Assembly: GCF_000255135.1 (NCBI RefSeq)
Contig: NC_016751.1
Coordinates: 248,001-312,000, forward strand
Source of the DNA: Marinitoga piezophila KA3
Lineage (GTDB): Bacteria > Thermotogota > Thermotogae > Petrotogales > Petrotogaceae
DNA length: 64,000 bases
Reading direction: 5' to 3'
In this document: piece after piece, positions 32,505-60,723 of the stretch
Layout of the letters: each line of letters opens with the position of its first letter
Numbering within the stretch: position 1 is the first letter of the stretch
Notes under the pieces: generated by a model
Told to the model about the DNA's origin: nothing
What the model saw: the letters and a program-made list of their open reading frames with translations, nothing else
The model's database searches: none
Position numbers and translations under genes: made by a program

Positions 32505-32546
32505 TTAAATTACATGGAATAAACTATTAATATGGGGGATGGTAAA

Positions 32547-33137
32547 ATGCATTTAAAAAAAGAACGTTATTTTTTAGGAATTGGTATAATCCTTATGTTT
32601 ATCAATGAATTAAATACCATAGGAATTATCCTTCAATTCATCGGTATTTATTTACTTAGCGAAAAAACAAATAACAAAAAAACATTTTATTATTTTGTAA
32701 TATCACTATTTTTATTTTATTCTCTAATTAGTTTCTTTGTTCCACAAAGCATAATTATGATTTTCAAAAATTATCCAGGTCTTGCTAACAATTTTGATTC
32801 TCTATTCACCCTAAGATACTCTTTACTTGAAAGCATAAGAAATTATTTCTTTGTCATTTCTTTATCCTTTTTTATTTATCTAATCTCTTTAATATTAGAA
32901 AGAATAGCCTATAAAAATTTATATGATATAACTTTATCAAAAGAACTTTCCATAGCAATAAAATTAATATCAGTAGAAGCTGTCGTACTTACCTTTTCTT
33001 ATCTATTATTGGCAAAATTTGTAATAGACGATGTAATTATTCTAAATTTATTAATTATATTATTTGTCTTAAACCTAACCTTAATTTTCCTAATAAAATT
33101 ATTTGAAATTATTGGGTTTATAAACATTGAACAGTAA
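32547..33137 (+). CDS. DUF996-like membrane protein
   Basis: 196 residues from the ATG at 32547 (GGGGGATGG upstream; an ATG 5 codons earlier overlaps this site). Five or so hydrophobic helices. The opening YFLGIGIILMFINELNTIGIILQFIGIYLL resembles the DUF996 family of small integral membrane proteins, a match made by eye. Function unknown. It ends the division cluster at a terminator. Confidence 0.55.
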   Translation: MHLKKERYFLGIGIILMFINELNTIGIILQFIGIYLLSEKTNNKKTFYYFVISLFLFYSLISFFVPQSIIMIFKNYPGLANNFDSLFTLRYSLLESIRNYFFVISLSFFIYLISLILERIAYKNLYDITLSKELSIAIKLISVEAVVLTFSYLLLAKFVIDDVIILNLLIILFVLNLTLIFLIKLFEIIGFINIEQ

Positions 33138-33171
33138 AAAATCCAGCCAGAAAATTGGTTGGATTTTTTAT
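33136..33171 (+). terminator. Intrinsic terminator of the division cluster
   Basis: AAAAATCCAGCC and GGTTGGATTTTT form a 12-bp stem with one G-U pair and end in six T, just after the DUF996-like stop codon. Confidence 0.85.
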
Positions 33172-33204
33172 TAAGAATCTGGACATGCTGTATTTTTAGA
33201 AAAA

Positions 33205-33359
33205 TTTGAAACATATTGTAATATAATAAAGGGCTTTTTACTACTATAGATTTTTGTAATTCAAATAATAAAAAACTTGATTCCTTAAAATTATTATATA
33301 AAAAATGACCGGAATATCTGTGGAACTTCTGGAGAATTAGTAATTTAACAAAAACTTGA
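33205..33359 (+). pseudogene. Relic of a metallopeptidase gene (3' end only)
   Basis: The stretch matches the last 145 nt of the peptidase gene at 53084-53893. Read in frame it gives NSNNKKLDSLKLLYKK, a stop, PEYLWNFWRISNLTKT and a stop, against NSNNKKLDSLKLLYKKG, PEYLWNFWEINYLTKT and a stop in the intact copy. One GGA codon has become TGA. Upstream similarity fades out by about 33205. So it is a decayed partial paralogue, not a functional gene. Its terminal TGA forms part of the -35 hexamer of the next promoter. Confidence 0.8.
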
Positions 33360-33384
33360 CAATAATTAGAAAAAGAGTTATAAT
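33356..33384 (+). promoter_or_regulatory. Consensus sigma-A promoter ahead of the cas operon
   Basis: TTGACA (33356-33361), a 17-nt spacer and TATAAT (33379-33384): both hexamers are perfect. It directs transcription into the 17-codon ORF and the terminator that precede cas6. Confidence 0.9.
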
Positions 33385-33410
33385 ATTAGTAGAAACTACG
33401 GGGGATGGAG

Positions 33411-33464
33411 ATGTTAATTATGGTAAAAAGAATTAACAAAAAATCAATAGATTTTCTAAAATAA
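33411..33464 (+). CDS. 17-residue leader peptide ORF before cas operon
   Basis: MLIMVKRINKKSIDFLK, with GGGGGATGGAG as ribosome site 0-10 nt upstream, 27 nt after the -10 box. The stop codon lies at the base of a terminator hairpin, so ribosome position would influence hairpin folding. Basic and short; no similarity recognised. It may be a leader for attenuation of the cas operon or the product of a small independent transcript. Confidence 0.5.
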   Translation: MLIMVKRINKKSIDFLK

Positions 33465-33498
33465 AGAGACCTTTATATGGTCTCTTTCTATTTTTTTA
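33463..33498 (+). terminator. Terminator/attenuator between leader peptide and cas6
   Basis: AAAGAGACC (33463-33471) and GGTCTCTTT (33479-33487) form a perfect 9-bp stem with a 7-nt loop, followed by CTATTTTTTT. It ends about 55 nt before cas6. No other clear promoter lies in the remaining gap, so cas transcription may depend on read-through. Confidence 0.85.
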
Positions 33499-33552
33499 CA
33501 TTTTATTAATATATCAGATGATAAATTAATTTTATTTAAGGTGGTGGAATAT

Positions 33553-34308
33553 ATAAGAATTAAAGTAGAATTTATTTCAGATAATAATATTATTTTACCT
33601 ATTGGTTTTAATAAATATATTCAAGCGTTAATATATAACATGTTTTCTCAAAAACTAAGAAAATTTATTCACGAAAATGGCTTTGAAAGTTTTAGTAAAA
33701 GAGTATATCGTTTTTTCACATTTTCCTCAATATTAGAAAGAGGGAAATACTATAAAAAAATGAAAATTTTCAACTTTGGAAATAAAATAAGCTTTTATAT
33801 TTCATCTCCTATAAATGAAATATTAGAAGATATATTGAATAATCTTTTTGAGAAAGATCGTTTTAGCCTAGGGGAAAATATACTATATCTTTCAAGTGTA
33901 ATATCATTAGGATCATTTTACACCGAAAAAAATATAATAAATATAAAGATGTTAACTCCTTTAGAAGTTCATAAAACAGAAATAATAAATAATAAAAAGA
34001 AAACTATTTATTATTCTCCATTTTCTGCAGAATTTGAAGAGTTAATAAATCTAAATCTTAAACATAAATGGGAAGCTTTTTATAATAAAGAACTTAAAGA
34101 ATCAATAAAAATTATACCGTTATTTAATGAAAATAAATATAAAAAAATCGTATATTATGGCCTTGGAGATAAAAAATATATTATTGAAGGTTGGATGGGA
34201 AATTATAAAATGAAAGGAGATCCGAAAATAATAAAATTTTTATATGATGTGGGGTTAGGAAGCAAAAATTCACAGGGGTTTGGAATGTTTGAAGTGTTGC
34301 GTGAGTAA
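33553..34308 (+). CDS. cas6: CRISPR RNA endonuclease Cas6 (possible AUA start)
   Basis: About 252 residues. Two ferredoxin-like halves; the N-terminus RIKVEFISDNNIILPIGFNKYIQALIYN and the C-terminal glycine-rich loop GLGSKNSQGFGMFE are typical of Cas6, which cuts pre-crRNA within the repeat. GTGs at 33541 and 33544 are in frame but overlap AAGGTGGTGG; that site is 6 nt ahead of an ATA at 33553, which would give M-R-I-K-V, the usual Cas6 beginning. I prefer ATA, with GTG as alternative. First gene of the cas operon. Confidence 0.88.
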   Translation: MRIKVEFISDNNIILPIGFNKYIQALIYNMFSQKLRKFIHENGFESFSKRVYRFFTFSSILERGKYYKKMKIFNFGNKISFYISSPINEILEDILNNLFEKDRFSLGENILYLSSVISLGSFYTEKNIINIKMLTPLEVHKTEIINNKKKTIYYSPFSAEFEELINLNLKHKWEAFYNKELKESIKIIPLFNENKYKKIVYYGLGDKKYIIEGWMGNYKMKGDPKIIKFLYDVGLGSKNSQGFGMFEVLRE

Positions 34309-34403
34309 AAAAGTAACCATATCTTTTTATAAAATAAATGAAGATATTTCTTTTAATTATATCTAATTTTATAATTAAGAAATTTGTTAGGAGGTTTTAT
34401 GAA

Positions 34404-35783
34404 ATGGTTACAGGTGATCCATTTGTAGACGCTGGCGGAGTTGTTTTAGAATATCTGAAAAATCAGTTCCCAGAAAAAAATATAATCGATTTGATAGATT
34501 TTGCTGCAGAAATTTTTATATATAAATGGAATGGTAAAATTGATTCGCTTCAACTTAATTCTAATATTACTCATAATTCCAAACGGGGTTCTCTCGAAAA
34601 GCAAAAAAAAGCAAAAGAAAACGTAAAAAAATATTTTGAAAATATATTAAATAGTGGGAGCTTTTCTGACGCGAGTGGCTATTGCCGTATTTGCGGAAAA
34701 AAAGGAAAAAATTTTAAAGTTGGGAGAGAAACTTTTCCATTATCTGGATCTGGTAAATTTGTAAATTTTCATCATGGACATGAAAATGGAATTTTGTTAT
34801 GTAATGATTGTATTACAAAACTTTTTTTCTTACCACTTGCTGTATTGCAAATGAGAAAAAATTTAGCACTTCTACATGTTCATAGTGAAAAGATAAAAGA
34901 ATACTGGATAGAAAAGGTAATAAAGAAAAATCTTGATAATTATTCTAAAAATATTTCTGAAGGAATATTAAAATCAAAATTAAATAATCCTAAAAATGCT
35001 TTATTTGAAATGGCATCAGAATTAATAAATGAATTTGAAGCTAAAAATGAATATTTACAACTTTTTTATTTTACAAATTTTGGAGCTAATCCCAATTGCG
35101 AAATTTATATTTTACCTAATCCTGTATTTAGATTTATAAGTAAAGTTTTGCGATATTGCAGAAAAGATTGGTTCGTTTTTATTAAACGATATTATAAGGT
35201 GTCTAAAGCTACTTGGGATTATACTACATTTGAATGGGTTTCAGAAAAAGAAGGTAAAATTACAAAAGATTATTATCAAGATGAAAAAAATATGGTTATT
35301 GAATATTTATTAGAGGGAAAATCATTAATAGGAATTTTAAAAAAATTTTATAGAGAAAACTTTTTAAAAAAGAAAGAAGTTAGTTCTTTAATTTTAGATT
35401 ATTATTTGAAGGAGGTAAAAAATATGGATCTTAAGCAAATTGAGTTAATTAAGCGACTTGGTAAATCTATAATAGAAATTTCACGTAAAGAAAACAATTT
35501 TAAAAAATATCTTACTATGATTGAAGGAGCAAACAAAGCTTTTCAATTAAGAGCTATAATCATTACATTAATTAAAAAACATTATATTAATGGAGAAGAA
35601 AAACCACTGATTACTTTAGATGAATATGTTAATTATCTTTTCCCTGATGGGCAATATTGGAGTGAAATAAGAGATATATTACTTATTTATCTTTATGAAT
35701 TATTACATGAAGAAAATATAAAAAATATTGATGTAGAAGAAAGTAATTTAGAAGAGCCTGAAGATGAATTAATAGAATTTTAA
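34404..35783 (+). CDS. cas8b: Type I-B Cas8b1 (Cst1 family)
   Basis: 460 residues from the ATG at 34404, which has AGGAGG 9 nt upstream; the frame stays open further back but without a ribosome site. The start GDPFVDAGGVVLEYL and the two CxxC pairs (YCRICGKKG near 90, LLCNDCITK near 130) identify the CXXC-CXXC Cas8/Cst1 large subunit, which recognises the PAM within Cascade. The C-terminus is acidic. Lies between cas6 and cas7 in one operon. Confidence 0.85.
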   Translation: MVTGDPFVDAGGVVLEYLKNQFPEKNIIDLIDFAAEIFIYKWNGKIDSLQLNSNITHNSKRGSLEKQKKAKENVKKYFENILNSGSFSDASGYCRICGKKGKNFKVGRETFPLSGSGKFVNFHHGHENGILLCNDCITKLFFLPLAVLQMRKNLALLHVHSEKIKEYWIEKVIKKNLDNYSKNISEGILKSKLNNPKNALFEMASELINEFEAKNEYLQLFYFTNFGANPNCEIYILPNPVFRFISKVLRYCRKDWFVFIKRYYKVSKATWDYTTFEWVSEKEGKITKDYYQDEKNMVIEYLLEGKSLIGILKKFYRENFLKKKEVSSLILDYYLKEVKNMDLKQIELIKRLGKSIIEISRKENNFKKYLTMIEGANKAFQLRAIIITLIKKHYINGEEKPLITLDEYVNYLFPDGQYWSEIRDILLIYLYELLHEENIKNIDVEESNLEEPEDELIEF

Positions 35784-35795
35784 AGGAGGGGTAAA

Positions 35796-36848
35796 ATGAA
35801 TACAATTCAAGGATTTATGCTTATTGATGTGGATGTTGCAGCATTAAACAATGCAGGTAATGATACTTCTACAACTTTAGATAATGCAGTTATGACTAAA
35901 AAAATAAGAAAAGATGGGAAAGAATATCCATATGTTTCTGGTCAAGCATGGAGATATTGGTGGCGCGAAACATTAATGAGAAATTTTAATTGGCAAATAT
36001 CTCCTATTATAAGAGAAAAAAAGATAGCTTATACTGAAGCCGATCCATTAAAATATGCTGATGATGATATTTTTGGATATATGAGAGCGGGGAAAAAAAA
36101 TATTATTGATACAAAAACAGGAAAATCAAAATCAATAAATGTAACTTTAACCAGAGTATCTCCTTTAAAAAATTCAGCTTTAATTGCTGTTTCTTATAAT
36201 CCGATAGTTCAGCATTGGTCTTCGATGTCCAGGCATGAGGGAGATGCTGTTCCATATGGAAAAGATGAATATTGTGCAATAATGAAAGGAATGTTTTCAA
36301 TAGATCTGGATATGGTTGGTACTTTTTCTTCCATGAATAAAACAGGTTTTCAAAATATAAATGAAGATATGAGGCAGTTGTATCTTGAAAAAGAAGGTGT
36401 TTTTGAAATTGATGATCCATTTGCAAAAGATATCAATGGTAATCCATTAAAACTTATAAGACTTCCAAAAGAAATTAGAGAGCAAAGAGTTAAAGATGTC
36501 ATCTTAGCTTTAAAATATTTATCTGGAGGAGCAAAACAAACTACAAATTTTGCAGATGTTACACCTAAAATAATTGTTCTTGCTATTTTAAAATCAGGCA
36601 ATCATCCATTTTCTCATCTTGCAAAAGAAGAAATGGGTAAAGCTGTATTTTCTGTAGATGCACTTAAAGAAGTAATAAATGATTATCAAGATAAATTTGA
36701 TAATAAAATATTTGTTGGAAAAAGGAAAGGATTTATGGACGAAATTGAAAGTGATTTGATAAAATTAAAAGAAGAAAATCTTATAGAATATGGATCAGTT
36801 AATAAAATAATAGATAAATTTGTAAAAACTATTGATTTAGGAGAGTAA
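35796..36848 (+). CDS. cas7: Cas7 backbone protein (DevR/Cst2 family)
   Basis: 350 residues. The N-terminal MLIDVDVAALNNAGND and KEYPYVSGQAWRYWWRETL segments and TRVSPLKNSALIAV are typical of the DevR/Csa2/Cst2 branch of Cas7, the RRM-fold subunit that lines the crRNA in Cascade. AAAGGAGGGG precedes the ATG by 6 nt. Cas5 begins 2 nt after its stop. Confidence 0.9.
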   Translation: MNTIQGFMLIDVDVAALNNAGNDTSTTLDNAVMTKKIRKDGKEYPYVSGQAWRYWWRETLMRNFNWQISPIIREKKIAYTEADPLKYADDDIFGYMRAGKKNIIDTKTGKSKSINVTLTRVSPLKNSALIAVSYNPIVQHWSSMSRHEGDAVPYGKDEYCAIMKGMFSIDLDMVGTFSSMNKTGFQNINEDMRQLYLEKEGVFEIDDPFAKDINGNPLKLIRLPKEIREQRVKDVILALKYLSGGAKQTTNFADVTPKIIVLAILKSGNHPFSHLAKEEMGKAVFSVDALKEVINDYQDKFDNKIFVGKRKGFMDEIESDLIKLKEENLIEYGSVNKIIDKFVKTIDLGE

Positions 36849-36850
36849 TT

Positions 36851-37507
36851 ATGAAAGTATATAGAATCTATATTTCAAGTTGGACAGCATCATTTAGATA
36901 TCCTAATTTAATCAGTGGTTTTCAACCAACTTTATTAGTACCACCGTTTTCAACAATAAATGGACTTATCTCATCTGCAAAAGGAGATTATTTTATACCT
37001 CAAAAAGAGAAGATAGGATATGTTTTTAGAGCTAAATCAAAAAATATAGATCTTGAAACCATATATCAAATGGAAAAATCTCTTAAAAATATAAAATCGA
37101 ATGTCATAAAAAGAGAGTTTTTAGTAGAAGCTGAATTGTTTTTATATACAGATAGTAAAGTTATTGCTGGATACTTTTTAAAACCAAAATATCAATTATT
37201 ATTGGGCCGCTCAAGTGATTTGGCGACAGTTAAAAATATTGATGAAATAGAAATTGAAGAAAAAAATAATTTAAAAAATTTGAAAGGAACAATTATACCT
37301 TTAAAATATGGTATAATGCCAGGAGTTATCCATGCTTTACCTAAATATTTTTCAAATACTATTCCAAGAAAGAATATAGGAACTCAACCATATTGTATTT
37401 TAGACTGGAATTATAAGCAGGAAGAAATTACAATACATGCTTTGGGTTTTTCAGATTATGACAAAAAATTAAAAATAGATTGGGATGTTTACTGGCAAGA
37501 ACCATAA
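36851..37507 (+). CDS. cas5: Cas5 Cascade subunit (Cas5t type)
   Basis: 218 residues. The N-terminus YRIYISSWTASFRYPNLISGFQPTLLVPPFSTINGLISSAKGDYF is the Cas5 RRM with the PP-S-x-x-G-L signature after the first strand. Cas5 caps the 5' handle of the crRNA. Because Cas6 is separate, this Cas5 need not be catalytic. It follows cas7 by 2 nt; a 50-nt gap with a short ATCGC/GCGAT repeat separates it from cas3. Confidence 0.88.
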   Translation: MKVYRIYISSWTASFRYPNLISGFQPTLLVPPFSTINGLISSAKGDYFIPQKEKIGYVFRAKSKNIDLETIYQMEKSLKNIKSNVIKREFLVEAELFLYTDSKVIAGYFLKPKYQLLLGRSSDLATVKNIDEIEIEEKNNLKNLKGTIIPLKYGIMPGVIHALPKYFSNTIPRKNIGTQPYCILDWNYKQEEITIHALGFSDYDKKLKIDWDVYWQEP

Positions 37508-37557
37508 ATAACATCGCTTGCACATATAGGCGATATTATAAAAGTGAGGTATTTGAT

Positions 37558-39909
37558 ATGAAATCAGTCAAATCAAATGAAAATTTGATATTAGCAAAAT
37601 CTGACGGAACAACTCTTTTAGAACATATTGAAGATAATATTGTAATATTAAATAATTTAAAAAGAATGTTACCATTATTACCCAAAATAACTAAACTCGA
37701 TAATTTTTGGGATATTCTTTTTTCTACAATTTTTTTTCATGATTTTGGAAAAATTCATAAAGAATTTCAAAAGTATATAAAAGGAGAAAAAAATTTATGG
37801 ACAAAACAAAGACATGAGATTTATTCAATACCATTTATAGATAAACTTAATCTGGATGAAAGATATATAAAACTTATAAAAAAAGTTATATTATCTCATC
37901 ATAAGTCGTTTTATGAACTAAAATATAATTATCTTAAAAGCAAAGAAGATCTGGAATATGAATATGAACTTAATTGGAAAAATAAAACGAAATTTCATCC
38001 GCAAGATTATGAAGGAAATCTAAAGTATAACTTTGATAAAAAAGTAATTGATTTTTATATAAAAAAATTCGACGAACTTGCGAAAAAATACCATATATCA
38101 GTTCAATTAAAAAACGAGAAAATCAAAATTAATAATATAAGAAATCCTATTGAGGAGTTTGCATATAATTTAGAAAAATATAATAAAGAAGAATATTTAC
38201 AGCATCTTTTATTATGGGGAAGTTTAAAAATTTGTGATCATCTTGGATCTGCGAAAATCATAGAAATCTATATGTTTGAAGAAAAACATTTTGTTTTTTT
38301 AGATGAAATGAAAAGAAAGATAGAATTTTATGATCATCAAAAGAAGTGTTTTTCTATTAAAGGTTCATGCTTGTTAATTGCACCTACAGGTTCAGGTAAA
38401 ACTGAATCTGCTATAGGATGGGTAAAAACACAACTTGAAAATAAACAGGGTAGGGTATTTTATGTTTTGCCTTATACAGCATCAATAAATGCAATGCATA
38501 AGAGATTAATAAAAAATATGGATAGAAGTGCTTCAAAAATATCAAATATAATAGGTATTTTGCATGGTAATATATCTCATTATATTTCAATTTATTTTGA
38601 AGAAGGTATTACTAAAAATGAAAATTCTATTAGAAATAAAAAAATAAAAAAGATTATAAAACAATATAAAAATTTACTTTCCCCCCTAATTGTGTGTACA
38701 CCTTTTCAACTTTTAAAGTATTTCTATGGAGTTAAAGGTTTTGAAAAGGGCTTTGTTTTTTTCTCTGGTGCAAAACTTATTTTTGATGAAATACATGCTT
38801 ATGATATAGTTACATTTGCACAAATTGTTGTAATGCTTGAGGTTTTAAAAAAGGATTTTTTATGTGATGTTATGATAATGACAGCTACAATTCCTACTTT
38901 TATGCAAAATATCCTTGCTGAGCGATTGAATATTGATAATATTATTACTGCTGATAAAAAATTTGTTGAAAAATTGAAAAGACATAAAATAAAAATAGTT
39001 GATAAAAATATATTTGATTTTATTGATAGTAATTTCCGTAAAATAATAAATAATCACAATAAAATTATTTTAGTTTGTAATACAGTTGAACAATCGCAAA
39101 AAGTTTATATGAAAGTTAGAGATATGAATATTTGTTCTGATAATGAAATTGTACTTATTCATGGAAGATTTAATCAACATGATAGGAATGATAAAGAAAA
39201 AGCTATTTACAACCAAAAAACTAAAATTCTTATAGGTACTCAAACAATTGAAGTAAGTCTTGATATAGATTATGATGTTATGATTACTGAACCAGCTCCT
39301 ATCGATGCGTTATTACAAAGATTTGGAAGAGTTAATAGAAATTCTAAAAAGAAACCAGCACCTGTTTATATTTGTAGAAAGGGTGGAGAGTATGATCACT
39401 ATATTTATCCTATTAATAAAATAGAAAAAACTTTAGAAGTTCTTAATGATGTAGATATACTTTGTGAAAAAAACATTGGTAATTTGATTGATGAAGTTTA
39501 TCCAAATTGGAACGATTTTGAGAAAAAAGAATTTGAAGATACTGTTTCTTTATTCAGAAATTCATTAAAAAGTCTTCAGCCATTTTCGGATACAAAAGAA
39601 ACAGAGGAATTTTATTATAGTAAATTTACAAATATTAAAGTTTTACCTGCTTGTTATTATTCAAAATATATTAATCTTATGGAATTATATAATTTTATTG
39701 AAGCTGAGAAACTCTTGGTAAATATAAATAGAAATTTTTTTTATAAGTATATAAAAGAAGGGAAAATTGAAAAAAGAGAGTTGGTTTTGTCTGAAGATGA
39801 AAAAATATTAAAAAAACATTCTTTTTATATTATTAAATGCAAATATAATTCGGAAGTTGGTCTTATAAATGAATATGAAGAAATAAAACATGATATAAAT
39901 TTTATATAG
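37558..39909 (+). CDS. cas3: CRISPR helicase/nuclease Cas3
   Basis: 783 residues from the ATG at 37558, with GTGAGGT upstream; an upstream extension overlapping cas5 lacks a ribosome site. HD nuclease domain first (FFHDFGKIHKEFQKY; LSHHKSFYEL; the metal-binding His and Asp are present), then the SF2 helicase: LIAPTGSGKTESAIGW (Walker A), LIFDEIHAYD (DExH), VMIMTATIP (motif III) and LQRFGRVNRN (motif VI). It degrades the target DNA after Cascade binding. No frameshift or missing motif. Confidence 0.94.
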   Translation: MKSVKSNENLILAKSDGTTLLEHIEDNIVILNNLKRMLPLLPKITKLDNFWDILFSTIFFHDFGKIHKEFQKYIKGEKNLWTKQRHEIYSIPFIDKLNLDERYIKLIKKVILSHHKSFYELKYNYLKSKEDLEYEYELNWKNKTKFHPQDYEGNLKYNFDKKVIDFYIKKFDELAKKYHISVQLKNEKIKINNIRNPIEEFAYNLEKYNKEEYLQHLLLWGSLKICDHLGSAKIIEIYMFEEKHFVFLDEMKRKIEFYDHQKKCFSIKGSCLLIAPTGSGKTESAIGWVKTQLENKQGRVFYVLPYTASINAMHKRLIKNMDRSASKISNIIGILHGNISHYISIYFEEGITKNENSIRNKKIKKIIKQYKNLLSPLIVCTPFQLLKYFYGVKGFEKGFVFFSGAKLIFDEIHAYDIVTFAQIVVMLEVLKKDFLCDVMIMTATIPTFMQNILAERLNIDNIITADKKFVEKLKRHKIKIVDKNIFDFIDSNFRKIINNHNKIILVCNTVEQSQKVYMKVRDMNICSDNEIVLIHGRFNQHDRNDKEKAIYNQKTKILIGTQTIEVSLDIDYDVMITEPAPIDALLQRFGRVNRNSKKKPAPVYICRKGGEYDHYIYPINKIEKTLEVLNDVDILCEKNIGNLIDEVYPNWNDFEKKEFEDTVSLFRNSLKSLQPFSDTKETEEFYYSKFTNIKVLPACYYSKYINLMELYNFIEAEKLLVNINRNFFYKYIKEGKIEKRELVLSEDEKILKKHSFYIIKCKYNSEVGLINEYEEIKHDINFI

Positions 39910-39991
39910 TTTAATATTAAATATGAAATTAGTCTTTTCACAAATAAACGATTTTATCAAAACAGAAAAAATCAAGGGAGTATGATTTTAT

Positions 39992-40495
39992 TTGAAAAAT
40001 AAAATAAAAATATATGGCAGTTTAATACAATCATATTTTATCTGTAAAAGACAAACATGGCTACTTGCTCATCAATTGATTGGTGAGCAAGATAATATGT
40101 TTATAGAAATAGGAAGATTTATAGCAGAAAAAAGTTATCAAAATACGAAGAAAGAAATTAAAATTGATGGCGGAATAATAGACTTCATAAAAAAAGAAAA
40201 TGGAAAAACAATAGTTGCTGAAGTAAAAAAATCCTCTAAAAATATAAAAAGCGCAGAATATCAATTACTATTTTATCTAAAAAAATTAAAAGGGAAAATT
40301 GATATTCAATATGCGGAAATAAGAATTCCCGTTGAAAAAAAGATTATAAAAATTGAATTAACAGAAGAAAAAGAAAAAGAATTAGAGAAAATAGAAGAAG
40401 AAATTATAACCATAATTAATAAAGAATTACCTCCAATGCCAGAAAAAATAAAGTATTGTAAAACTTGTTCATATCAAAATTTTTGTTGGGGATGA
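39992..40495 (+). CDS. cas4: Cas4 exonuclease of the adaptation module
   Basis: 167 residues, TTG start with GGGAGTATGA upstream. RecB-type nuclease core: GGIIDFI, the E-x-K of VAEVKKSS and YQLLFYL. The four iron-sulfur cysteines are one near residue 20 (YFICKRQTW) and three at the C-terminus (YCKTCSYQNFCWG). Cas4 trims prespacers and selects PAMs with Cas1-Cas2. Separated from cas3 by 82 nt and from cas1 by 4 nt. Confidence 0.92.
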   Translation: MKNKIKIYGSLIQSYFICKRQTWLLAHQLIGEQDNMFIEIGRFIAEKSYQNTKKEIKIDGGIIDFIKKENGKTIVAEVKKSSKNIKSAEYQLLFYLKKLKGKIDIQYAEIRIPVEKKIIKIELTEEKEKELEKIEEEIITIINKELPPMPEKIKYCKTCSYQNFCWG

Positions 40496-40499
40496 AAAA

Positions 40500-41495
40500 A
40501 TGAAAGAGACCATATATATATTTAGTAGTGGCGAATTAAAAAGAAAAGATAATTCAATAGTTTTTATAACTTCTGACAACAAAAAAAGATACATACCTAT
40601 TGAAAATTTAAAAGAAATATTGATTTTTGGAGAAGTAAATATTACTAAAAAAACGCTTGAATTTTTAAGTCAAAAGGAAATAATAGTTTCATTTTATAAT
40701 TATTATGGATATTATATGGGAAGTTATTATCCTCGAGAGCATTATAATTCGGGATATATGATTTTAAAACAAGCTGAACATTATATAAATGAAATAAAAA
40801 GAAGCAAACTTGCAAAAAGTTTTGTAATAGGAGCAACAAAAAACTCCTTAAAAATTTTAAAATATTATAATCGTAGAGAAAAAAATCTTGAGGAATATAT
40901 AAAGAAGATAGAATCTCTTTTAATGAAATTAGAAAAGAAATCGAAAATTAAAGAAATTATGACAATTGAAGCAGAAATAAAAAAAGAGTATTATAAAACA
41001 TTTAAAATAATTATAGAAAATGAAGCTTTTGAATTTTCCAAAAGAAGCAAAAGACCTCCTGAAGATAGAATAAACGCATTGATAAGTTTTTCTAATTCTA
41101 TAATATATAATATGATTTTAAAAGAAATATATACAACTCATCTTGACCCAAGGATAGGTTATTTACATACTACAAATTTTAGAAGATTCACATTAAATCT
41201 TGATATAGCAGAAATATTTAAACCAGTAATAGGAGACAGAACAATATTTAATGTCATAAATAAAAAAATAATAAACGAAAAACATTTTGAAACTGGAATA
41301 AGTGGAGTCTTTTTGAACAACAAAGGAAAACAAAAATTTCTTGAAAAATTAGAAGAAAGATTAAAACAAACAATAAAACATTATAAATTAAATAAAAGAG
41401 TAAGCTATAGATATCTAATAAAAATAGAATTATATAAACTTGAAAAACACTTAATTGGAGAAGAAGAATACAAACCTTTTGTAATGGAGTGGTAA
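40500..41495 (+). CDS. cas1: CRISPR integrase Cas1 (type I-B)
   Basis: 331 residues. N-terminal beta domain (YIFSSGELKRKDNSIVF; ENLKEILIFGEVNI), then the helical catalytic domain; expected metal ligands are Glu in MTIEAEIKKEYY, His in YLHTTNFRRF and Asp in LNLDIAEIFKPVIGD. Integrates spacers with Cas2. Its stop precedes the Cas2 start by 2 nt. Confidence 0.94.
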   Translation: MKETIYIFSSGELKRKDNSIVFITSDNKKRYIPIENLKEILIFGEVNITKKTLEFLSQKEIIVSFYNYYGYYMGSYYPREHYNSGYMILKQAEHYINEIKRSKLAKSFVIGATKNSLKILKYYNRREKNLEEYIKKIESLLMKLEKKSKIKEIMTIEAEIKKEYYKTFKIIIENEAFEFSKRSKRPPEDRINALISFSNSIIYNMILKEIYTTHLDPRIGYLHTTNFRRFTLNLDIAEIFKPVIGDRTIFNVINKKIINEKHFETGISGVFLNNKGKQKFLEKLEERLKQTIKHYKLNKRVSYRYLIKIELYKLEKHLIGEEEYKPFVMEW

Positions 41496-41497
41496 AT

Positions 41498-41758
41498 ATG
41501 TTTGTAATATTATATTATGATGCAAATGAAAAAAGAGTATCAAAATTTTTGAAAGTATGTCGAAAATATTTAACTTGGGTGCAAAATTCAGTTTTTGAGG
41601 GTGAAATTACAAAAGCAAATCTGGAAAAACTAAAATATGAATTAAAAACAAAGGTTAAAGATAACGATTCTATAATAATATATGAATTTAGAAGTATGAA
41701 TTATAGTAAAAGAGAAGTAATAGGAATTGATAAAAAAGAAAATAATAAATTTATATAA
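41498..41758 (+). CDS. cas2: CRISPR protein Cas2
   Basis: 86 residues from the ATG at 41498, with GGAGTGG in the end of cas1 as ribosome site. Ferredoxin fold: FVILYYDANEKRVSKFLKVCRKYLTWVQNSVFEGE, with the conserved Asp after the first strand, and SIIIYEFRS. Structural partner of Cas1. Ends the cas operon 45 nt before a terminator. Confidence 0.94.
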   Translation: MFVILYYDANEKRVSKFLKVCRKYLTWVQNSVFEGEITKANLEKLKYELKTKVKDNDSIIIYEFRSMNYSKREVIGIDKKENNKFI

Positions 41759-42802: not shown

Positions 42803-42862
42803 TGCACTTACCCCAAATTAGTGGACAGCCTGAGTTTAACCTAAAAAAATAGCATTTTAAGC

Positions 42863-44564
42863 GGTAGTATAATAAAAAGTGTGTAAATAAAAAAATAGAA
42901 AAATAAAAAGAATGAATATGTGAAAAAAAGAAGCCCAGTAGTGTGGTGAAAGAGAAAGGGGATTTTGAAAAAAAGGTTACATGGGGGGATAGTAATGCCG
43001 AGAAAAAGAAAAGAGGAAAATGAACAGATTCTTGGCAATGTGGATAGGAATTTCATAAAACAATATATAAAAGAAAATGGAATTAAGGATTGGAATGATG
43101 TTGAGGATATAAGCAAAAAGCTTGTAAAAATAATGCTTGAAGAAATGTTGAAAGCAGAAATGGATTATGAACTTGGATATGAAAAGTATTCCAGAAAACC
43201 TGAGGATAACGATAATTATCGAAATGGTTATTCTAAAAAAACTGTAATAACTAAAAATGGTGAGATGGAATTAACAGTTCCAAGGGATAGGAATGGAGAA
43301 TTTGAACCACAAATTGTTAAAAAGAGACAAAGACATATTTCTGTTATTGAGGATTTGGTATTATCGCTATATTCAAAAGGATTAAGTGTCAGGGATATTA
43401 GAGACCATATTAAAGAAATATATGATGTGGAAGTTTCTCCAGAGAAAATCAGTATGATTACTAATTCTGTAATGCCTTTAATAAATGATTGGAGAAATAG
43501 ACCTTTGGAAGAGATATATGCTATTGTATATCTGGACGCTTCATTTTATTCAGTAAAAGAAGATGGTGTTGTTAAAAGAAAGGCTATATATAACGTCATA
43601 GGTATTAATCTTGATGGATATAAGGATATCCTTGGTATATACATAGAAAAAACTGAATCCTCAAGATTCTGGATGAATGTCTTGAATGATTTAAAAGCCA
43701 GAGGTGTTAAAAGATATTTTAATCGCTTCTGTTGATGGGTTAAATGGTTTTGTTGATGCAATCCATACCGCTTTCCCTAATGCTGAAGTTCAAATGTGTA
43801 TTGTCCATCAATTGAGAAATACATTTAAATATGTCCCTCATAAGCATAGAAAAGCTGTTGTTAAGGATTTAAAACCTATATATCAAGCTCCAAGTCTTGA
43901 AGCTGCTGAAGCTGCACTTGAAGATTTCGAAAAAAAATGGGGCGAAACTCACCCCTTGGCAGTACAAATATGGAAAATAATTGGGATAAATTATCAGCCT
44001 ATTTTAAATATTCAGAACCAATAAGAAGGCTGATATACACAACCAATCCAATAGAAAATGTTCATAGACAATTTAGAAAAATAACCAAAAACAAAAGCGT
44101 ATTTCCAACAGATGACTCATTGATAAAAGCAATATATTTTGCAGCAATGAGAATAACGGAAAAATGGACTACAAGAATTAGGGATTGGGGACAAATATTA
44201 AATGAGTTAAGAATATATTTTGGAGATGATAGAGTGCCTATTTACAGAACAAACGATTAAAAAGAAAATTCAAAATTCTGTATATATTAAACTTTGAAAA
44301 GTGAATATTTCTTAAAAGATTGCACTAAATTGTGCAAAAGGAGTGAAAACTCAAAAATTAGCTTCTTAAAAAACAAAAAGATTATTAAAAAAATTATTCA
44401 AACAATTTTTAATATCTCATTAAAAATTATAACTCTAATATTTTGATTTCACAAAGTATTGAATTTTCTTGAATTATTAAGAATAAACATCATATTTATT
44501 CCTAAACACAAATAATCTCTTATAACCAACTATAATTAATTTACACAGTATTTTGGATAGTCCC
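42863..44564 (+). mobile_element. IS256-family element nested in the IS3 element
   Basis: Terminal repeats are GGTAGTATAATAAAAAGTG at the left and, on the other strand from 44564, GGGACTATCCAAAATACTG, both running on into TGTAAAT; 21 of the first 29 positions agree. It is flanked by an 8-bp direct repeat TTTTAAGC (42855-42862 and 44565-44572), the IS256-type duplication. It landed across the stop codon end of the IS3 orfB, which the duplication preserved. 1702 bp is longer than usual because about 300 non-coding bases follow the transposase; they hold a TTGCAC/GTGCAA hairpin (near 44320) and nothing else I can name. Confidence 0.88.
42995..44260 (+). pseudogene. IS256-family transposase broken by two single-base frameshifts
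   Basis: Start at 42995 after GGGGGGATAGTA. The pieces join to a full transposase of about 420 residues. The DDE residues are all present: Asp in VYLDASFYSVKEDG, Asp in ASVDGLNGFVDAI and Glu in NPIENVHRQF. The frame breaks at 43709-43712, where AAAA should be AAA (...ARGVK then DILIASVDG), and again at 43974-43977, where AAAA should be AAAAA (...AVQIWK then NNWDKLSAYF). The two changes, +1 and -1, restore the original frame. Decay, sequencing error in A-runs or transcriptional slippage are all possible. Confidence 0.85.
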
Positions 44565-44566
44565 TT

Positions 44567-45298
44567 TTAAGCTATGTTACTTTTTTCTAACAATTTTAGA
44601 GCTTCATCTTCTTTTTCCTGTGGAGTCAGATAATTTATTGAACTGTGTATTCTTTTTCTGTTGTAGAATGATTCTATATACTCAAAGATTTTTATTTTTG
44701 CTTCTTCAAAGCTTTTATAGTTATTTACGTATATTTCTTCTTTTTTTATAATCGAATGAAATGATTCTATTTTTGCATTGTCATATGGTGTTCCTTTTTT
44801 GCTGTATGAATGTTGTATTCCTTTCTGTTTTAGTAAATCATTGAATTCTTTGCTTGTATATTGTGTTCCTAAATCACTATGAAATATTATTCCCTTTGTT
44901 TCTTTTACATTTATACAGGCATTTTTCAGCGCTGTTATTACTAATTCTTTATTCATTTTTTTGGAATATGAATATCCTATTATTTTATTTGTATGCATAT
45001 CCATTACACTTGCTAAATATGTCCAGCCTGTTCCGCGTATGTATATATAGGTTATATCTCCACACCATTTCTGATTTATTGATGTCGTTTCAAAATCCTG
45101 GTTTATTATATTTGGTAATTGTTTTATTTTTTCTTTTGTTTTATGATTTTTGAATTTCTTCGCTACTATTGATCTAATTTTTAGATTTCTCATCCGTTTT
45201 TGTACTGTTTTTATATTTACCTTTATATTTTTCTTTTCAAGCACTTTATGCATCTTTGGAGCTCCATAGCGTTTGTGGCTATCTATATATATTTCCAA
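44567..45298 (-). CDS. IS3-family transposase OrfB (catalytic part)
   Basis: 243 residues from the first ATG, but the frame continues upstream to about 45446 (IVRFIEKYKKYYPVKTICKVL...), so the real product is an OrfAB fusion made by -1 frameshifting near CGAAAAC at the end of orfA. The rve integrase core has Asp in WCGDITYI, Asp in FHSDLGTQY and Glu in AKIESFHSII. HTH_21-like region HKRYGAPKMHKVLEKK precedes it. The TAA stop lies inside the IS256 target duplication and is intact, so the element may still be active. Confidence 0.88.
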   Translation of the reverse strand: MEIYIDSHKRYGAPKMHKVLEKKNIKVNIKTVQKRMRNLKIRSIVAKKFKNHKTKEKIKQLPNIINQDFETTSINQKWCGDITYIYIRGTGWTYLASVMDMHTNKIIGYSYSKKMNKELVITALKNACINVKETKGIIFHSDLGTQYTSKEFNDLLKQKGIQHSYSKKGTPYDNAKIESFHSIIKKEEIYVNNYKSFEEAKIKIFEYIESFYNRKRIHSSINYLTPQEKEDEALKLLEKSNIA

Positions 45299-45444
45299 TA
45301 TACTTTTATCAAGTTTTTCATTAAATTTTGCTCTATTGCTTATTTTGTGATTTTTCGCTTTGTAATATGTGCTCCTTGGAAATTTTAGTACTTTACATAT
45401 TGTTTTTACTGGGTAATATTTTTTGTATTTTTCTATGAACCTTA

Positions 45445-45720
45445 CTATTTGTCTTGTTGTTTTCGTGCGAATATGGCTGTAGCTTTTTTTAATATTTCAT
45501 TCTCCATTCTTAATTGCTGCAGTTCCCTTTGCATTTTCTCATATTCTTTTTTGCTGATACCACCTTCTATTACCGGTTTGGATTCTTTTATCCACTTATA
45601 TATCGTTACATTGCTTATGCCATATTCGCGACTTAAATCATATACCTTTTTTCCCATTTCATGCAATTTCACTATTTGTTCTTTAAATTCGGCACTATAT
45701 CTTTTACCGTTCTTACTCAT
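45445..45720 (-). CDS. IS3-family transposase OrfA
   Basis: 91 residues: an HTH_Tnp_1 domain (KRYSAEFKEQIVKLHEMGKKVYDLSREYGISNVTIYKWI) followed by a leucine zipper-like coil (YEKMQRELQQLRMENEILKKATAIF). Binds the IS ends and regulates transposition. GAAGGTGACCAC precedes the ATG. orfB begins in the -1 frame over its last codons. Confidence 0.9.
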   Translation of the reverse strand: MSKNGKRYSAEFKEQIVKLHEMGKKVYDLSREYGISNVTIYKWIKESKPVIEGGISKKEYEKMQRELQQLRMENEILKKATAIFARKQQDK

Positions 45721-45797: not shown

Positions 45798-46417
45798 CTA
45801 TAAGGAATTGAAATAAATCTTTGTTAAGCTGTTCGGCAATATCTAAATTTCTTTCTACAGTACCTATAAGGAATTGAAATAAGACTAACCAATAATAAGC
45901 TGGTAAATGTAAAGCTCTTTCTACAGTACCTATAAGGAATTGAAATCTGTCTGTAATTTTACCAAAACTTTCTGATGTATTATCCTTTCTACAGTACCTA
46001 TAAGGAATTGAAATTAAATTCTTGTTATATTAAATAATCCCTGTTTATATCTTTCTACAGTACCTATAAGGAATTGAAATACAACAATAAATCCTTTTAA
46101 GCCTGAAGGCACTCTTTTAACTTTCTACAGTACCTATAAGGAATTGAAATTAAAAATAAAAATTAAATTCTTTTGCATTTAACATACTTTCTACAGTACC
46201 TATAAGGAATTGAAATTTAAAAAAATTATCTCGTGAAAACGGAATGTATACACTTTCTACAGTACCTATAAGGAATTGAAACTTCACTGTCTGTCTCGTT
46301 ACTCCAACTTTTTCCGCGGTTTTTATCGTAACTATAAGGAATTGAAAACTAAAAATATTTTGCAACCAGGAAGTTAAATCAACAACTGTTTTTATCGTAA
46401 CTATAAGGAATTGAAAA
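45798..46417 (+). CRISPR. CRISPR array, trailer-side part (half repeat, 7 repeats, 2 variant repeats)
   Basis: Begins with the second half of the interrupted 14th repeat (45798-45814). Standard repeats follow at 45851, 45917, 45985, 46051, 46121, 46187 and 46253; the last of these ends in C instead of T. The final two, at 46319 and 46388, are identical to each other but differ from the rest: GTTTTTATCGTAA replaces CTTTCTACAGTAC, while CTATAAGGAATTGAAA is shared. Spacers are 36-40 nt. One spacer (46283-46318), read on the minus strand, encodes KVGVTRQTV, a helix-turn-helix pattern of a regulator. Confidence 0.95.
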
Positions 46418-46441
46418 AATAATTTTAAACATAAAATTAGG

Positions 46442-46618
46442 ATGGTGATAAAAATCAAAAAAATAAAATTATATGATTATGAAGAATATAAGGAAAATGC
46501 TTTTAGAAAAAATCCAAGGTTAAAAGAAGCTTATGATAGTCTTGAAGAGAAGTATAAAGCAATAAGTCAAGAGATAATTAATAATATGAATTTGGTTAAA
46601 AAGGATAAAGATATTTAA
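46442..46618 (+). CDS. Antitoxin-like remnant (N-terminal HigA/XRE arm)
   Basis: 58 residues from ATG 46442, or 54 if translation begins at the ATC at 46454, which lies 6 nt after GGTG in GGATGGTG. The sequence DYEEYKENAFRKNPRLKEAYDSLEEKYKAIS matches the N-terminal arm of HigA-type antitoxins (YKEELLKDPEVRKEYDxLExEY), but a stop comes before the helix-turn-helix. No toxin gene adjoins. Most likely a truncated antitoxin left at the array end. Confidence 0.45.
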   Translation: MVIKIKKIKLYDYEEYKENAFRKNPRLKEAYDSLEEKYKAISQEIINNMNLVKKDKDI

Positions 46619-53012: not shown

Positions 53013-53083
53013 GTCTTCCACCAAAAATAATGTATAATATATTATATTAAATATAAAAACTCATGAAAGGAGAAAAATGGAAA

Positions 53084-53893
53084 ATGAAAATAAATACAGA
53101 AATAATAGATACATATTTAATGGAAAAAAATTTAAAAAAAATCTCAAACAATAAAATCTTTTCTCTTATTGAAAATGGAAAAATTTTATTTGAAGCACCT
53201 CCAGAGGAATCTTATCAAAAAATTAAAAACACTTATAATTTATTCAAAAATATCATTTTTTCATTTAAACCTTGTAATTATAATATATGGAAAAATATAT
53301 TTGAAATATCTGATAATACAGATAATAGCTTCATTATTTTCCCAATCATTGGCGCTCCATCTCCCTACGAAGCAATGATAAGATATGATGAAAACGGAAA
53401 TACTTTGATGATTTTCGATATATATTTACTTGGAAAAAATATTGACAATCTTCCAAAGTTAAAAGAAAATATATCCTTATTAATCACTCATGAATTAGCT
53501 CATTACTACATTCATCAAAGATTTCAATATCCACAAAAAATCGAAAATCAATTAAAATATTTATTTTTTGACGAGGGATTTGCACATTTTTTATCCTATT
53601 CAAATAACATAGAACAAATTAATTGGAACGAAAAAAAATATATTAAAAAAAGAGAATATTCATATGAAATGTTAAAAGAAAAATTGAAAAATAAATTAGA
53701 TAAAAATCTTTTAATAAAGGGAATTACAGCAAATAATTATTGGGATAAATATATTGCAATATCAGGAATGTTCGCCATTATAGATTTCTGGCATTCAAAC
53801 AATAAAAAACTTGATTCATTAAAATTATTATATAAAAAAGGACCAGAATATCTGTGGAATTTCTGGGAAATCAATTATTTAACAAAAACTTGA
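53084..53893 (+). CDS. Uncharacterised gluzincin-type metallopeptidase
   Basis: 269 residues from the ATG at 53084 (AAAGGAG about 11 nt upstream; an ATG at 53063 adds only 7 residues). HExxH zinc motif in LLITHELAHYYIHQRF near residue 140 and a downstream glutamate in FFDEGFAHFLSYSN, the layout of clan MA gluzincins with peptidase MA-like domains. No signal peptide seen, so likely cytoplasmic. The substrate is unknown. A decayed copy of its 3' end lies at 33205-33359, next to the cas operon. Confidence 0.7.
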   Translation: MKINTEIIDTYLMEKNLKKISNNKIFSLIENGKILFEAPPEESYQKIKNTYNLFKNIIFSFKPCNYNIWKNIFEISDNTDNSFIIFPIIGAPSPYEAMIRYDENGNTLMIFDIYLLGKNIDNLPKLKENISLLITHELAHYYIHQRFQYPQKIENQLKYLFFDEGFAHFLSYSNNIEQINWNEKKYIKKREYSYEMLKEKLKNKLDKNLLIKGITANNYWDKYIAISGMFAIIDFWHSNNKKLDSLKLLYKKGPEYLWNFWEINYLTKT

Positions 53894-60695: not shown

Positions 60696-60723
60696 AATTA
60701 ATATATCACCTGATATATTAATT
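60696..60723 (-). promoter_or_regulatory. 28-bp palindromic operator at the methyltransferase promoter
   Basis: AATTAATATATCA and TGATATATTAATT are perfect 13-bp inverted arms separated by CC. It ends 22 nt before the methyltransferase start codon and includes -10-like TGATATATT on the minus strand. The ATATCA/TGATAT core is shared with the CI/Cro operators at 61413-61490, so the same repressor may act here. Confidence 0.65.

Follow-up and report, generated by a model that had tools for sequence, protein, structure and literature searches.

The type I cas operon of the window (the whole 64-kb stretch of DNA that was analysed, lying on contig C2 of a genome of two contigs and 2,244,793 bases) is preceded by a compact cassette composed of a consensus promoter, a ribosome-binding site, a short open reading frame (the mini-ORF) and an intrinsic terminator, which is followed by a palindrome. 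The cassette has homologs in other genomes of the genus, is linked to cas genes, and contains an ORF that is open up to the terminator hairpin; the palindrome is one of a family of similar sites. We read positions 33356 to 33497 as an independent, cas-linked mini-gene, with cas6 starting separately at the palindrome, and regard this reading as having about an even chance of being right. Control of the cas genes by attenuation is possible, but a mini-gene combined with a separate cas promoter is preferred over it.

All parts of the cassette lie on the forward strand. The promoter, P1 (TTGACA-17-TATAAT, 33356 to 33384), matches the consensus at 12 of 12 positions and is conserved in five other genomes of the genus (G002 to G006). 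The nearest purine-rich ribosome-binding site, GGGGGATGGAG, is found at 33400 to 33410 and includes a GGGATKG motif common to all six cassettes. The mini-ORF that follows, MLIMVKRINKKSIDFLK, has 17 codons (33411 to 33464); by eye, there are further in-frame ATGs at 33405 and 33420. The intrinsic terminator (33463 to 33497) consists of a stem-loop of 9 pairs with a loop of 7 nt (33463 to 33487) and a T-rich tail. Thus, the earlier, sequence-only reading of this DNA is borne out in its anatomy: a perfect promoter lies ahead of cas6, a 17-codon ORF has a good ribosome site, and the stop codon of this ORF falls within the first bases of a 9-bp stem. The local statistics for promoter and terminator are modest. 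Two 12 of 12 promoter sites are present in the window versus none or one in each of 20 dinucleotide shuffles, so P1 alone is just mildly unusual, and two terminator-like sites are seen between 32000 and 36000 versus 0.9 expected. A known RNA family is ruled out, since nothing in the window matches Rfam at the gathering score.

What settles the reality of the layout is its conservation across the genus. The sequence-only reading would have given way to a leader missing from close relatives; instead, the cassette is present in six of the seven genus genomes (G000, the genome of the window, and G002 to G006, with G001 lacking it), which rules out a chance layout. Among the six other genus genomes, four (G002, G003, G004 and G006) carry it upstream of cas6, in the order TTGACA-TATAAT, GGGATKG, ATG, 20 to 33 codons, a strong hairpin with a T-rich tail, and palindrome. 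In G005 it is an orphan with a 12-codon ORF, in a genome that lacks any cas6 match. The pattern of P1 plus ribosome site has 17 matches in 21 genomes of the family. Six of these are the cassettes, one per genome, and G001 and 14 other family genomes have no cassette; of the 11 remaining matches, five were read and all five lie at ordinary gene starts. With the window copy left out, an HMM of the other five cassettes finds 33397 to 33495 as its best match in the window when the palindrome is omitted (E = 0.0006; runner-up, 0.89). When the palindrome is included, the window cassette scores E = 6e-8, and the top match is another palindrome, at 60697.

The cassette follows the genus and not the cas lineage, because the nearest relatives of the window cas6 have no such terminator while genus members with a different cas6 have the cassette. 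The cas6 genes behind the cassette in G002, G003, G004 and G006 are only 27-30% identical to that of the window (E from 1e-6 to 4e-9). Its three closest relatives (58-59% identity), in G054, G056 and G060, belong to another family, and none has a terminator between promoter and cas6, which rules out a leader tied to the nearest cas6 relatives. A scan of genome contigs for loci related to Cas6 and a plasmid search each gave no result.

The mini-ORF is probably translated, because it is open in all six cassettes and because the changes between G003 and G006 are synonymous. The probability that the frame stays open from the ATG up to the hairpin is 0.03 to 0.13 per cassette, as judged by dinucleotide shuffles of the same stretch. 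For three roughly independent lineages (G000; one of G002, G003 and G006; one of G004 and G005), the joint probability is about 4e-4. The mini-ORFs of G003 and G006 are distinguished by changes at two sites, and by eye neither change alters the encoded residue. Between lineages, the sequences of mini-ORF and terminator diverge widely, and the peptide is poorly conserved. The window mini-ORF contains no codon below 5 per thousand, no consecutive rare codons and no run of one amino acid (the other ORFs were read by eye).

Upstream of the window cassette lies a gene for a membrane protein (32532 to 33137, forward strand), which is a distant relative of DUF996. Such a gene is present upstream in all six genomes with a cassette, although it is broken in G006. 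The copies of G003 and G004 match Pfam DUF996, that of G005 matches weakly, and the window copy has no Pfam match of its own; in G001 both the DUF996 match and the cassette are absent. The membrane-protein gene ends in its own intrinsic terminator (33136 to 33168, forward strand; inverted repeat I10). Next come, on the same strand, remnants of two other genes. The 3' end of an alpha/beta-hydrolase-like gene (33168 to 33243; family name by eye) is 77-84% identical in DNA to the 3' ends in G001, G003, G004 and G006, and in relatives this gene is found near the thiolase site. The 3' end of a metallopeptidase-like gene (33231 to 33359) has 82% DNA identity and corresponds to residues 235-276 by tblastn; the intact gene of the window is at 53063 to 53893, and the TGA stop of the remnant forms part of the P1 -35 hexamer. 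A repeat at 33209 to 33365 is this gene remnant, which rules it out as a regulatory repeat. The window cassette lies behind ftsA-ftsZ-like and secretion-ATPase-like genes (names by eye), unlike the cassettes of G002 to G006, which lie behind a thiolase-like gene. The idea that the cassette travels with the thiolase site is rejected, since the thiolase and DUF996 genes present elsewhere in the window genome are accompanied by neither the palindrome nor the P1 pattern.

The cas6 gene (33541 to 34308, forward strand) has its start homologous to those of relatives at 33553, an ATA preceded by AAGGTGG, and in the window cas6 seems to begin at this codon. At 4 of 30 cas6 loci (L005, L007, L020 and L021, in G013 to G016), no in-frame ATG, GTG or TTG is found upstream of the conserved N-terminus, and the candidate starts are solely of the ATA, ATC or ATT type. 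The rest of the operon (34338 to 41758, forward strand) encodes a CXXC-type Cas8-like protein, Cas7/DevR, a Cas5-sized protein with no Pfam match, the Cas3 helicase, Cas4, Cas1 and Cas2. CRISPR arrays lie downstream of the operon, which spans 33541 to 41758. One array is split at 42841 to 45720 by insertion-sequence-like transposase ORFs, one of them with a broken frame, and the second array switches to another repeat variant, GTTTTTATCGTAACTATAAGGAATTGAAAA, towards its far end (46300 to 46460).

Between the terminator and cas6 lies the palindrome, ATTAATATATCA-GA-TGATAAATTAAT (33505 to 33530), a candidate operator with one mismatch to the genus consensus, ATTAATATATCANNTGATATATTAAT. With up to three mismatches, this consensus has 4 to 14 copies in each of the seven genus genomes and is present in 12 of 61 genomes, while the reversed consensus, used as a control, has no copy in the 61. 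The family comprises about 70 sites in the genus, two of them in the window (33505 to 33530 and 60697 to 60722), and its members lie upstream of cas6, cstA-like, pepT-like, chemotaxis-like, polysaccharide and DNA-methyltransferase-like genes (names by eye). The palindrome resembles a global regulator's operator. Other cas6 genes also have the palindrome upstream (the second locus of G006, and G007, G013 and G016), and G013 and G016 each have a single site with one mismatch, namely the one at cas6. Two near-identical sites of the window genome, at 917081 and 2221745 of contig C2 (L069 and L072), lie beside similar AAA-type genes (names by eye); this pair is perhaps part of a mobile element.

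The start of cas6 transcription is most likely at the palindrome, a placement proposed because copies elsewhere sit within core promoters and because an extended -10 sequence, TGA-TAAATT (33519 to 33527), is present here within the palindrome and downstream of the terminator. Of the 33 sites that were read, after loci numbered below 48, L073-L091 and duplicate sites had been set aside, 13 have a start codon at most 60 nt away, counting solely genes that read away from the palindrome. At both pepT-like genes (G002 and G004) and at the three chemotaxis-like genes of G000, G003 and G004, a TTGACA or TTGAAA is found exactly 17 nt from the -10 inside the palindrome, and thus the palindrome is part of the core promoter there. 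The methyltransferase-like gene of the window has the same order as cas6: an unrelated repressor-like gene, a terminator, the palindrome at 60697 to 60722, and the gene. Several observations argue against a separate start. No such -35 precedes the palindrome at the G011 chemotaxis-like gene; at the cas cassettes the extended -10 is present but the -35 is poor (2 or 3 of 6 positions in the four aligned); and the palindromes of the G004 and G006 cassettes have a one-base deletion. In addition, P1 is the sole good two-hexamer promoter upstream of cas6 in G000 and, by eye, in G003. The earlier statement that cas6 has no other evident promoter therefore stands for promoters with two good hexamers, but the extended -10 past the terminator speaks against it as a general claim.

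Two relatives point to a cas promoter still further downstream. In G002 and G006, two degenerate CRISPR repeats, antisense to cas, are present between the palindrome and cas6 (3830-4045 of L073 in G002 and 2360-2590 of L076 in G006). They score 22 and 20 in G002 and 23 and 20 in G006, versus shuffle maxima of 15 and 14. No degenerate repeat rises above the shuffle maximum in G000, G003, G004 or G005, and near the window cassette the scores for its own repeat, 9 and 11, are within those of shuffles. With its own site masked in the search, the spacer of G002 matches DNA just upstream of cas6 at 14 of 15 scored positions, which 3 of 500 shuffles reach; that of G006 matches at 12 of 15, which is weak alone, as 82 of 500 shuffles reach it. 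Both targets adjoin CCA, the presumed PAM, and in neither genome does any of 300 shuffles match with CCA. The matched DNA lies 200 bp beyond the cassette, where it covers or lies next to a TATTAT in G002 and a TATAAT in G006. This is a likely cas6 promoter, which would be under autoregulation of the kind described for CreR guides, whose arrangement is the same in a review (PMC12737573). A cas promoter would thus lie downstream of the cassette in G002 and G006.

The sequence-only reading saw in this layout ribosome-mediated attenuation of the cas operon. The layout itself is real, homologous and linked to cas, but the placement of the stop codon within the stem, on which the argument drew, is ordinary. 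In a survey of the window and nine genus loci, a terminator could be detected within 60 nt of 18 genes. Counted from the first base of the stop codon, all 18 stems begin in the range -3 to +19 nt, 10 of them at +2 or less; the window and G005 mini-ORFs, with the stem at +1, are within this range. The argument from the stop thus fails for the window because ordinary genes share its geometry. The candidate promoter past the terminator, the lack of a run of control codons, the G005 cassette without cas6 and the CreR-like guides of G002 and G006 also count against attenuation. The alternative offered at the time, an independent small transcript, is at least equally well supported. Attenuation could work by conditional read-through, which we consider doubtful: the cas genes would be transcribed from P1, and a trailing ribosome would mask the terminator's 5' arm. 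Transcription would then continue into cas behind a well-translated leader and stop behind a poorly translated one, with no antiterminator fold required. It would account for the retention of the order promoter, ORF, terminator and cas6 in five genomes, with two cas6 lineages and at two kinds of chromosomal site, and for the finding that, in the window, the stretch from terminator to cas6 contains no promoter with two good hexamers. Elsewhere in the genus, the cas6 loci L008, L011 and L014 have a plain promoter and no intervening terminator. The ORF touches or overlaps the stem in all six cassettes, and its stop lies 12 nt inside the stem-loop in G003 and G006, 22 nt in G004 and 35 nt in G002, an overlap seen at none of the 18 ordinary genes; this depth would fit a ribosome that opens the terminator and is a point against an independent mini-gene. 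Read-through is weakened by the ordinary geometry of the window, the candidate promoter within the palindrome, the likely cas6-proximal promoter targeted in G002 and G006, and the G005 orphan. Minimum-energy folds of the six leaders at 37 C, for a thermophilic host, also reveal no shared alternative or antiterminator fold. A broader version, in which translation-coupled read-through via a fast-evolving mini-ORF is layered with a regulator that binds the palindrome and, in certain species, with CreR, and the whole cassette has been passed to unrelated cas operons, seems unlikely to us.

The cassette might instead be a guard like CreT: the mini-ORF transcript would be toxic, the CRISPR effector would normally keep it repressed, and the cell would thereby be addicted to its cas genes. 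PMC8501985 describes a creTA pair that directly precedes a cas operon. The strong promoter and ribosome site, the mini-ORF, the stable stem-loop and the neighbouring type I cas operon all suit such a guard, as does the finding that the shortest ORF is that of G005, which lacks a cas6 match. The survival of a cassette in that same genome nevertheless counts against toxicity upon loss of the effector. Moreover, no degenerate repeat accompanies the window cassette, the best guide match in G002 and G006 is upstream of cas6 and not at P1, and the window ORF lacks rare codons. Targeting of the leader by array spacers is ruled out as well, since none of the 20, 48, 123 and 50 spacers read from the arrays of G000, G002, G003 and G006 matches the leader region above shuffles. 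A guard of this kind is thus, in our judgment, very unlikely. We give just as little credence to the idea that the cassette of the window has lost its function and is decaying. Its position behind scraps of two other genes and the wide divergence of ORF and terminator between lineages would agree with decay, but six genomes have retained a perfect promoter together with a ribosome site, an uninterrupted ORF and a terminator, and the synonymous differences between G003 and G006 point the same way.

According to the preferred reading of an independent mini-gene, 33356 to 33497 would form a small transcription unit of its own, in which a promoter and a ribosome site, both strong, serve a short translated ORF that runs up to an ordinary intrinsic terminator. 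The unit would have been retained beside type I cas operons and the DUF996-type membrane gene through most of the genus. Its product, a basic peptide of 12 to 33 residues or an RNA, may serve the CRISPR system. The cas genes would be transcribed separately, from a start at or just past the palindrome, which would be both promoter and operator for a regulon extending to unrelated genes. The CreR-like guide of G002 and G006 would act on the cas6-proximal promoter further downstream. Read-through from P1 may contribute to cas expression but would not be its main control. If the mini-gene is separate, type I cas operons have a small, conserved neighbour, a gene for an RNA or a peptide, that has been overlooked. 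If read-through is true, translation would influence CRISPR immunity; we did not find such a link in the open-licence literature, where no paper on a leader peptide, attenuation or terminator read-through of a cas operon was found. With either reading, the palindrome suggests an operator common to cas and unrelated genes, such as the pepT-like and chemotaxis-like ones.

Ribosome-mediated attenuators, such as the trp and his leaders, consist of a promoter, a short leader ORF with its ribosome site, an intrinsic terminator and then the structural genes. The window has each of these elements in the same order; unlike those leaders, the cassette has no antiterminator fold that we could see and no run of control codons, and it is followed by a candidate promoter past the terminator. 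CreTA, as described in PMC8501985, is similar in that a mini-ORF with a strong ribosome site and a stem-loop adjoins a type I cas operon. It differs in that no creA guide against P1 was found for the cassette, the window ORF has no consecutive rare codons, and the cassette is retained in G005 without a cas6 match. The comparison with CreR (PMC12737573) applies to two relatives and not to the window, where no such guide was found; in G002 and G006 the guide lies downstream of the cassette, and, as with CreR, a spacer between two degenerate repeats matches CCA-flanked DNA upstream of cas6.
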